A DNA stretch of 64,000 bases, from NCBI GenBank assembly GCA_015057555.1, contig SVEC01000001.1, positions 124,001 through 188,000 of the forward strand, in the 5' to 3' direction. The position numbers were made by a program, and so were the translations under genes. Positions 9,294 to 10,986 of the stretch are shown here, in pieces. The notes under the pieces are model-generated. The model was not told the origin of the DNA. It made no database searches and worked only from the letters and a program-made list of their open reading frames with translations. The stretch is from Lachnospiraceae bacterium. Lineage in GTDB: Bacteria > Bacillota > Clostridia > Lachnospirales > Lachnospiraceae. Positions within the stretch are counted from its first letter, which is position 1; every line of letters starts with the position of its first letter.

Positions 9294-10052
9294 TTATGAA
9301 AATATTTTCTTGTTGTTTTTGTCTCTATATTTCTTTGGAGTAGTGCCGTGGTACTCTGTAAAGGAAGCAGTAAAGTGACTCTGAGATGAAAAATGATAAT
9401 ATTCTGATATTTCAGTTATGCTGATATCACTATACTGGAGCATATTCGCAGCCGCCTTAAGCTTTTCTTTTTTGATATAAGCAGAAATTGACTCACCAGT
9501 TTCTTTGGTGAAAAGCTTTGAAAGGTAGGAAGGTGTTACCTCCAACGCCTCTGCTATGTCGGAAAGGGTAAGTCTGGTATTTAAATGATTAGATATAAAA
9601 TCTATTGCCTTGGAGGTCTGTCTAGAGTATGACTGGTTCTTTTTGATATTTTGCATAGTGGAGGTATAATCATTAACCATTTTTTCTCTAAGCTCAAATA
9701 CCTGTGCTACGGTTGTTAAAACATCTACCTTCTGAATGTACAAATCACTCATACCATATGCTACCTCTCGGTCTAAGCCTTCTTCCAAACAAAGCCTGGC
9801 TATAAGGGATGCAAGTATTGCAAAATGATACTTTTGGCTTTGAACAGGATCCTGTGAAAGCATACCCTGAAGATTTTCATTTTCATCAAAATTCTTTCTT
9901 TGTCCAAATAGCTTTTTGTATTCATCTACCATAGCTTTGTTACCTGTAGCAATTGCTCTATAAAAGCCAAATTCGTGGTCTAGCTCTGGATGCTTAATAT
10001 TTTCTTCTCTATTTTTAAATATACTTACATTTAAATCCTTGTTAATGCTCAT
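9294..10052 (-). CDS. AraC/XylS-family transcriptional regulator
   Basis: A 252-residue protein whose last ~100 residues form the two-helix-turn-helix AraC domain: a first HTH around TLSDIAEALEVTPSYLSKLF and a second around DISITEISEYYHFSSQSHFT, ending TPKKYR. The N-terminal ~145 residues have no recognisable cupin core, so the effector is unknown. The gene lies alone on the minus strand, convergent with the flavoprotein gene and divergent from the structured element at 10.2 kb. That element could share its control region. No target operon can be named from the window. Confidence 0.9.
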   Translation of the reverse strand: MSINKDLNVSIFKNREENIKHPELDHEFGFYRAIATGNKAMVDEYKKLFGQRKNFDENENLQGMLSQDPVQSQKYHFAILASLIARLCLEEGLDREVAYGMSDLYIQKVDVLTTVAQVFELREKMVNDYTSTMQNIKKNQSYSRQTSKAIDFISNHLNTRLTLSDIAEALEVTPSYLSKLFTKETGESISAYIKKEKLKAAANMLQYSDISITEISEYYHFSSQSHFTASFTEYHGTTPKKYRDKNNKKIFS

Positions 10053-10204
10053 ATGTTTGACGAATCCTATCTTTTTTGTACAATAATTGTGTATGAAATA
10101 TTAATTTACTGCACATTATATCATAATTTTTACATAAAACAACAAAAAAATGAAAAAAATGATATAAAATTGATATAAAAACTATGTATTATTTTGTAAA
10201 ATAA

Positions 10205-10377
10205 AAACGAATTAAGGGATAACCTTAATGAACAACAAGCGTATCGCAGGGTAAAACCTGTGTATATAAATATGGAATCCCCCCAAGATTCATATTAGTG
10301 TCTATTAAGACACACATTTCTCCTTCGCGTTATATAATAACGCAGAAAAATCCGCTCTCCCCAAGCGGATTTTTTAC
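10205..10377 (+). ncRNA. Candidate regulatory small RNA with C-rich loops
   Basis: No convincing coding frame is present, but six local hairpins follow one another. They are 10211-10229 (perfect 7-bp stem), 10245-10262, 10270-10295 (stem with one bulge, loop CCCCCAA), 10298-10313 (GTGTC/GACAC), 10327-10343 (7-bp stem) and a terminator at 10346-10376 with loop CUCCCCA. A linker at 10320-10325 reads CUCCUU, the complement of the Shine-Dalgarno core AAGGAG. C-rich loops and anti-SD linkers are established features of Firmicute trans-acting sRNAs such as RsaE/RoxS and S. aureus RsaA. A clear promoter was not resolved (candidate -10 around 10187-10202). It could alternatively be a leader RNA, but no gene follows on this strand. 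Confidence 0.55.
10346..10376 (+). terminator. Terminator of the candidate small RNA
   Basis: TCCGCT (10351-10356) pairs with AGCGGA (10364-10369), flanked by five A and at least six T residues. The loop is CTCCCCA. Because no gene on this strand precedes it, it implies a non-coding transcript. Confidence 0.75.
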
Positions 10378-10412
10378 TTTATACTAATGATAAGGTTTAA
10401 GACACCAAAGAT

Positions 10413-10448
10413 GAAAATGGAGCCAGGATAATACCTGACTTCATTTTT
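10413..10448. terminator. Terminator at the end of the TetR gene
   Basis: AAAATG...CAGG at 10414-10427 pairs with CCTG...CATTTT at 10434-10447 with one mismatch and one wobble. A run on one arm and T run on the other suit termination in either direction. Confidence 0.6.
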
Positions 10449-10449
10449 C

Positions 10450-10986
10450 TTAATCATTATAGGAATTGTTTATTATATTTGTTATGTCTGTAATAATCTT
10501 TACAACCCTCTCCTGATCAATGGTTTTGTACTGCTGATACGCATTGTAGCAGCCATGAACAAGATATGTGATGTAAACATTAGTTTTTAAATCTGCACGA
10601 AGCTCTGGATGCTGCTTATATATAACGGACTTTACACCATTTTCGATACCCTTAGTAAGTATACCTGTTCTAGTGCCACTAAATAGGGTCTTAAATGGTT
10701 GACCTAAGGCCAAAGCTCTATTAAAGATATTAAATGCTATCTGGCTTAAGTTATCTAATGCATTCTCAGGATATTCTACATCCTTCATAATGTCTGCTAT
10801 AAGCTCCTGCTCAATCTGATCTGTTAAATCATAGATGTCCTTATAGTGAAGGTAGAAGGTCTGCTTGCTAATCTGAGCCTTGTCTGTAAGCTCCTTTACA
10901 GTAATCTTTTCGATAGGCTTTTTTTCACGAAGCTCAATGTATGCATTGAATATATTGCTTTTAGTTTTTTGAATTCTTAAATCCAT
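10450..10986 (-). CDS. TetR/AcrR-family transcriptional regulator
   Basis: A 178-residue protein with an N-terminal TetR helix-turn-helix (about residues 6-52; core ITVKELTDKAQISKQTFYLHYKD). The all-helical C-terminal part has no recognised ligand motif; the length is slightly under the usual 190-200. The start is fixed by GGAGGG 8 bp upstream of the ATG. A perfect 8-bp inverted repeat lies just upstream of its own start, so autorepression is likely. It stands alone with no adjacent efflux or enzyme gene on its strand, and the neighbouring + strand gene is a hydrolase 200 bp away. Its regulon is unknown. Confidence 0.88.
   Translation of the reverse strand: MDLRIQKTKSNIFNAYIELREKKPIEKITVKELTDKAQISKQTFYLHYKDIYDLTDQIEQELIADIMKDVEYPENALDNLSQIAFNIFNRALALGQPFKTLFSGTRTGILTKGIENGVKSVIYKQHPELRADLKTNVYITYLVHGCYNAYQQYKTIDQERVVKIITDITNIINNSYND

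Follow-up and report, generated by a model that had tools for sequence, protein, structure and literature searches.

RsaE/RoxS carries several unpaired C-rich motifs that are able to pair with Shine-Dalgarno sites. Deletion of hfq has no major effect on the down-regulation of ppnKB by RoxS, and RoxS is induced via the ResDE/SrrAB two-component systems, according to the portions of the papers available to us (PMC4409812, PMC6435200). The streptococcal csRNAs of the CiaRH regulon possess an unpaired stretch between stem-loops that complements Shine-Dalgarno and AUG, and CAU is a possible anti-AUG in 53 of 61 csRNAs in the sections of the source at hand (PMC3091779). Excerpts of a further study report that csRNA pairing with comC is backed by compensatory mutations (PMC4507080). 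A literature search, in sources that were accessible in part, found no trans-acting sRNAs of such kind for the Lachnospiraceae, and the trans-acting sRNAs of this abundant gut family seem hardly described in those sources.

The window analysed here is a 64 kb stretch of DNA from a Lachnospiraceae genome (G000), and the coordinates of motifs and loci follow its numbering. It contains a gene for a structured RNA that, in comparison with Rfam, RsaE/RoxS and the csRNAs, is almost certainly real and represents a new sRNA family. Its divergent AraC-type partner gene, its promoter-like element and the conservation of the whole linker CAUUUCUCCUUC go beyond the preliminary description of the locus.

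Occurrence of the RNA

The gene is supported by its fold z-score, by covariance-model matches and by covariation:

10205..10377, plus strand: sRNA gene, with a predicted transcript at about 10208-10375

Of 61 genomes searched by blastn with the RNA region, 17 have it, and all of these belong to the window's own Lachnospiraceae genus (17 of 37). A covariance model, R1, was built from those 17 sequences. Within the genus it recovers the same 17 genomes with one copy each, leaving 20 without the RNA; among the good genomes (≥90% complete, ≤5% contaminated) the count is 8 of 18. Conservation in relatives, for which the preliminary description had proposed a covariance search, is therefore found within the genus. 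The surveys of the family and the order used stricter filters, by which some weak matches were lost. R1 matches the window's own genome alone among 150 family genomes (one per genus), and gives three matches among 392 order genomes: the window's own genome, its congener G026 and, weakly, G373 from another genus. In the 12 stretches upstream of Nth taken from genomes without the RNA (one of just 498 bases) there is no R1 match up to E 10.

Scanned for the exact pattern, a public genome collection yields 16 records, 15 of them titled Lachnospiraceae, Clostridiales, Clostridia, Eubacteriales or Eubacterium; the records include Eubacterium sp. MSJ-21 and MAGs from cecum, rectum and rumen. A Planctomycetota record scores 10.1 bits with R1 and was taken as chance. 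A mobile or viral element was considered and rejected: the exact pattern occurs in no viral contig searched and 10255-10380 has no plasmid match.

Predicted structure and conserved motifs

The RNA is predicted to fold into six hairpins with three exposed motifs. The comparisons below refer to the 17 sequences of the genus.

10211..10229, plus strand: hairpin 1, sequence-variable, directly after the predicted transcription start
10241..10267, plus strand: hairpin 2, sequence-variable
10269..10296, plus strand: hairpin 3, with loop CCCCCAA; six of ten model pairs never vary
10298..10313, plus strand: hairpin 4; all six model pairs changed on both sides in some relatives
10327..10343, plus strand: hairpin 5; five of six model pairs never vary
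10345..10375, plus strand: hairpin 6, intrinsic terminator with U-run, its loop carrying motif C; seven of 12 model pairs changed on both sides
10279..10286, plus strand: motif A, CCCCCCAA, invariant in 17 of 17; mean unpaired probability 0.86
10315..10326, plus strand: motif B, linker CAUUUCUCCUUC, invariant in 17 of 17; mean unpaired probability 0.70, minimum 0.36
10357..10363, plus strand: motif C, loop CUCCCCA, with UCCCCA in all 17 by eye; mean unpaired probability 0.90

The stretch 10205-10377 (plus strand) has a minimum free energy of -51.8 kcal/mol. Dinucleotide shuffles average -26.3 (sd 3.67), which puts z at -6.96, and an equally good fold is reached in none of 200 such shuffles. 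The terminator scan detects hairpin 6 (10345-10375), with three such sites in the 1.3 kb scanned against 0.6 in shuffles, and a terminator-like hairpin closes the folds of all 17 RNAs. The RNA has a predicted length of ~170 nt in G000 and about 130-250 nt in relatives. Runs of CCCCCC or GGGGGG occur at two places in the whole window.

The scan for coding potential began 110 nt ahead of the C-run and extended 25 nt beyond the CCCCA of the terminator loop. This stretch has no closed ORF of at least 18 codons in G000 and no ORF common to all 17 relatives; ORFs of 18-38 codons are found in nine of them, and the other eight, G000 included, have none of at least 18 codons. The architecture of the preliminary description is thereby reproduced: six hairpins in a row at the positions first assigned to them, no coding frame, an independent terminator, CUCCUU at 10320-10325, and the C-rich loops CCCCCAA at 10280-10286 (within the C-run CCCCCCAA, 10279-10286) and CUCCCCA at 10357-10363.

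A match to a known RNA family with another mechanism had been named there as evidence against the reading, and no Rfam family reaches its gathering threshold in the window. Up to E 10 there are 13 weak matches in 9950-10600, no RsaE/RoxS family among them, which look like chance. The best of these, BTnc231, reaches 27.8 bits where its gathering score is 80.4, lies on the minus strand and was rejected.

In the alignment of the 17 genomes hairpin 3 around GAAUCCCCCCAAGAUUC, CAUUUCUCCUUCGCGUU and the terminator-loop UCCCCA are near-invariant, the first G of GAAUCCCCCCAAGAUUC being altered in one genome. Motif B comprises an anti-Shine-Dalgarno sequence and an anti-AUG-like CAU, and lies between hairpins 4 and 5. 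The unpaired probabilities of all three motifs were calculated from folds begun at the predicted transcript start. Motif B is unpaired with a probability of only 0.36 in G025, because it is predicted to pair there with the variable 5′ domain. Partial pairing of this kind (unpaired 0.36-0.58) is predicted in G008, G012, G025, G026, G029, G031 and G035; it might act as an internal gate, or else be an error of prediction. The 5′ domain differs in sequence, yet forms at least one hairpin in all 15 genomes with the promoter-like element described below, its fold z-scores ranging from -1.55 (G030) to -5.39 with 14 of 15 at -3.19 or below. The length of hairpin 4 varies freely among relatives.

Covariation provides the conserved structure expected of a trans-acting base-pairing sRNA. 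In the model-fitted alignment of the 17 sequences 95.8% of 576 cells are paired against 83.7% in shuffles. Both partners have changed in one or more sequences at 15 of the 34 pairs, and the alignment has a covariation score of 0.374 where shuffles give 0.140; the observed values are reached in none of 500 shuffles, which the kinship of the sequences alone can exceed. The consensus structure itself was derived with RNAalifold from the unfitted MAFFT alignment, where the number of pairs changed on both sides is also 15. Hairpin 4 and the terminator are the most variable, while hairpins 3 and 5 are almost fixed, and covariation is hardly informative for the latter two because of this constancy. 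The consensus-pair cells comprise 521 Watson-Crick, 31 G-U, 5 A-C and 19 other combinations, and the balance of G-U over A-C favours the plus strand within a structure that was itself predicted on that strand.

The divergent AraC-type gene and the promoter-like element

An AraC-type regulator gene lies upstream of the RNA on the opposite strand, and the region between them carries a promoter-like element:

9294..10052, minus strand: AraC-type regulator gene, 252 aa, Pfam HTH_18 and HTH_AraC; divergent from the RNA, proposed activator
10171..10175, plus strand: TGATA element within TTGATATAAAA; candidate AraC site over the -35 region
10197..10202, plus strand: -10-like hexamer TAAAAT, 21 nt after TGATA

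The arrangement TGATA-N21-TANNAT is present in 15 of the 17 upstream regions, compared with at most three for any other spacing from 10 to 34 and with a mean of 0.16 (maximum 3) over 300 rounds of shuffling, counts that are only descriptive because the motif had been noticed before counting and the 17 sequences are related. The two loci without it are G002, where the contig is cut, and G020. A normal -35 box with a 17-nt spacer would be closer to the -10-like hexamer than TGATA is, and a second copy, GATATAAAA, is found ~11 bp further upstream in G000. An activator site placed over the -35 region is a familiar pattern for AraC-type proteins, and both the distance of TGATA and the second upstream copy fit such a site.

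A divergent AraC homologue stands beside the RNA in all 16 testable loci (16 of 17 in all), the G002 contig beginning 80 nt before the C-run. Its aligned start is 180-332 nt before the hairpin-3 C-run. Four genomes encode a homologue 71-86% identical to the G000 protein; eleven encode one with 44-51% identity. In G032 and G011 the AraC gene is beside the RNA with Nth ~10 kb off or on another contig, and neither HD nor Nth genes were found in these two RNA loci. The RNA-linked AraC proteins form one clade: in a tree with the best matches of 14 genomes that lack the RNA, the 16 proteins are split off by a branch with support 100/99. The tree left out paralogues from genomes with the RNA as well as six genomes without it (no locus), and four long branches in it, three of them RNA-linked, were flagged. 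The best AraC matches in those six genomes are ≤41% identical, which is no proof by itself, given that the RNA-linked copy in G030 reaches just 44%. In four of the 12 stretches from genomes without the RNA (G009, G033, G004 and G027) ABC-F and/or FMN-reductase genes are still found by eye beside the TetR-like gene, with AraC and RNA both absent from that locus.

No NCBIfam model is above its cutoff for the AraC protein among the best 25 of 30 models. A single structure model is all-helical (mean pLDDT 79.7, pTM 0.47, 12 sequences). It has 15 PDB matches at E ≤0.001 over 95-114 columns, mostly AraC-type DNA-binding domains, and these are confined to its C-terminal, DNA-binding half. We regard control of the RNA by the AraC-type protein as likely; that it binds the element, and activates rather than represses, is our reading of the site.

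In three stretches from genomes without the RNA (L110, L115 and L118) AraC paralogues appear by eye to be divergent from GH16-like sequence, with GATATA-like repeats in between. From these neighbours, as read by eye, the AraC group may serve carbohydrate use.

Potential targets

The linker CAUUUCUCCUUC is complementary to GAAGGAGAAAUG, that is, a Shine-Dalgarno sequence followed by A/U and AUG. Places complementary to the motif-B 13-mer (≤1 mismatch) and to the terminator loop (CTTGGGGAGA) were counted in the 37 genomes, 17 with the RNA and 20 without, after removal of self matches (for motif B in every genome with the RNA, for CTTGGGGAGA in the five having one). There is no excess of either in genomes with the RNA over those without: 8.35 against 8.7 places per genome for motif B (p 0.69) and 2.88 against 3.05 for the terminator loop (p 1.0). 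Relative to a reversed-pattern control, motif-B complements occur at 333 against 262 places, and are above control in 19 of the 37 genomes. For CTTGGGGAGA the corresponding counts are 115 against 25, and it exceeds its control in 33 of the 37 genomes, whether or not they carry the RNA.

Forty places from the matches listed were read (13 motif-B and four motif-C in G000, three in G012, 14 in G030, five in G025 and one in G005), together with 20 further places picked non-randomly, for the sequence variants they share. Among the matches listed, several motif-B places are plausible translation starts, and the RNA gene itself is the sole G000 place with the exact linker complement GAAGGAGAAATGT. 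Complementarity of 11-13 nt to motif B recurs at translation starts in close relatives. These are an ORF beginning MPHIKWLG, with no Pfam match, and the response regulator MYNILICDDEKD (PF00072), both in G000, G008, G012 and G018 (where the contig end cuts the response-regulator ORF); a cation ATPase, MREAYQITKEE (PF00690), in G008 and G012; and an MKKK ORF in G000 and G018. The recurring starts are weak evidence of targeting because the species are close.

Hfq (PF17209) was detected in none of the 37 genus genomes, including the 18 good ones, and in five of 14 control genomes.

A second C-rich RNA

The weak R1 match in G373 led to a second C-rich sRNA, in genus g178. It is present in 25 of 25 g178 genomes, at two places in 24 of them and 49 in all:

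L225-L254 and L021:1501-1629, the L021 copy on the minus strand: g178 C-rich sRNA
L275:2995-3090, at about 55.6 kb of NZ_CP143948.1: Agathobacter rectalis relative of the g178 RNA, beside annotated ftsH

A run of 59 bases is invariant in the 30 g178 copies (28 distinct) that were aligned of the 49. Four loci of the g178 RNA were compared with Rfam and gave no match, and one sequence is predicted to be nearly unstructured except for the terminator. By eye it adjoins FtsH-like or DacB-like ORFs, the FtsH-like ORF preceding the second copy. The A. rectalis relative, on a replicon of 251.7 kb, has 87.9% identity over 59% of the query; there is no gene under the match among the genes listed, and no Rfam match.

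The g178 and A. rectalis RNAs share with the window RNA a CCCCCCAA run, a CCUUCUCC stretch and a terminator, and the g178 RNA has in addition a CCCC terminator loop. Unlike the window RNA, the g178 RNA is predicted to be nearly unstructured, occupies two places in 24 of 25 genomes and has FtsH- or DacB-like neighbours. The R1 score is 32.1 bits for G373 (E 3.5e-4) and 13.8 bits for A. rectalis, and R1 alone is no proof of common ancestry because that E value is for one of 392 genomes. Both RNAs might belong to a Lachnospiraceae superfamily of unnamed, Hfq-independent C-rich sRNAs, in which an AraC-wired six-hairpin branch and an ultra-conserved FtsH-linked g178/A. rectalis branch share a common ancestor and, by masking translation starts, reprogramme central or carbohydrate metabolism; we regard this as a doubtful proposal. 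If it were true, the six-hairpin branch would be wired one-to-one to a dedicated AraC activator with paralogues beside polysaccharide-degradation genes.

Discussion

The preliminary description is upheld in part. The fold, the covariance-model matches, the covariation and the unpaired motifs support a standalone RNA, conserved and structured, that exposes C-rich and anti-Shine-Dalgarno stretches in its Lachnospiraceae host. The RsaE-like mode of regulation suggested in that description is plausible; complements of the linker and of the terminator loop show no excess where the RNA is present. That the RNA acts by masking translation starts is, in our judgement, fairly probable. The fuller account, with somewhat better than even prospects, is of an AraC-activated, Hfq-independent trans-acting sRNA that masks Shine-Dalgarno regions, of which the transcript, the AraC binding and the targets are all predicted. 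The divergent AraC-type protein would bind the GATATA-type repeat over the -35 region and switch the RNA on in response to a signal. The linker CAUUUCUCCUUC and the two C-rich loops would then pair with the Shine-Dalgarno or start regions of several mRNAs, and the pairing would block translation without Hfq.

The RNA could be real and AraC-linked and yet mainly bind a protein or the ribosome as a decoy or sponge, the C-rich stretches and the hairpin-5 stem forming a protein site. The invariance does extend into the stems of hairpins 3 and 5, which is more than seed pairing needs, and the flat complement counts agree with such a role. All three near-invariant unpaired stretches nevertheless complement Shine-Dalgarno-like or G-rich sequence, and the same design occurs in RsaE/RoxS and the csRNAs, where pairing with mRNA has been tested according to the excerpts available; we therefore consider a decoy unlikely. 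Translation into a small protein, or a dual function, accords with the short ORFs of nine relatives but is hard to reconcile with the eight, G000 among them, that have no ORF of at least 18 codons in the scanned stretch and with the free variation in the length of hairpin 4, so that we give it very little weight.

A cis-acting leader or attenuator of a downstream gene is suggested by those relatives in which the next downstream genes are HD then Nth on the same strand. In G000, however, the RNA is followed by a TetR-like gene (10450-10986) on the opposite strand, HD and Nth were not found in the G032 and G011 loci, and the terminator-like hairpin closes every one of the 17 folds, making this reading very improbable; a riboswitch or leader was dismissed, since neither the kind nor the strand of the downstream neighbours is constant. 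The complement, finally, shows GGGGGGA, AAGGAGA and GGGGAGA in loops and linker, as might befit a minus-strand RNA with GGA-rich loops acting as a CsrA-type sponge. Against it are the terminator U-run and the promoter-like element, both of which point to the plus strand, and the 31 G-U against 5 A-C cells, in a structure whose prediction on the plus strand favours G-U; of all the alternatives it is the one we find hardest to credit.

With its strong conservation, its invariable AraC neighbour and a host genus in which Hfq was not detected, the sRNA constitutes a defined and testable module. It raises the questions of which signal it answers, which targets it has and how pairing works without Hfq.

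The module can be set beside the classes with which it has most in common. An Hfq-dependent sRNA would need a host protein that was detected in none of the 37 genus genomes (PF17209). Like RsaE/RoxS, as portrayed in the source material available, the window RNA has several conserved unpaired C-rich motifs. Unlike RsaE/RoxS it is built of six hairpins, two of which carry a C-rich motif in the loop, with a third such motif in a linker, and it has no match at threshold in Rfam, whose library we take to include RsaE, which places it outside that sequence family. It adjoins an AraC gene, in contrast to the control of RoxS by ResDE/SrrAB described there.

The promoters of csRNAs contain two TTTAAG stretches separated by a 5-nt gap. 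With one mismatch allowed per hexamer and that 5-nt gap assumed, this tandem element is missing in 16 of the 17 upstream regions; the remaining pair, in G018, has one mismatch and overlaps hairpin 1 rather than a promoter, and an exact single TTTAAG is found in G016 and G020. The window RNA further differs from the csRNAs in its single copy per genome, its AraC neighbour, its extra C-rich loops and the lack of an Rfam match at threshold. Like the csRNAs, so far as the accessible text describes them, it presents in CAUUUCUCCUUC an unpaired anti-Shine-Dalgarno and anti-AUG linker between two hairpins (4 and 5). Given the design shared with both systems, together with the outcome of the RsaE family search and of the csRNA promoter scan, the RNA may work like RsaE/RoxS and the csRNAs while being a member of neither.
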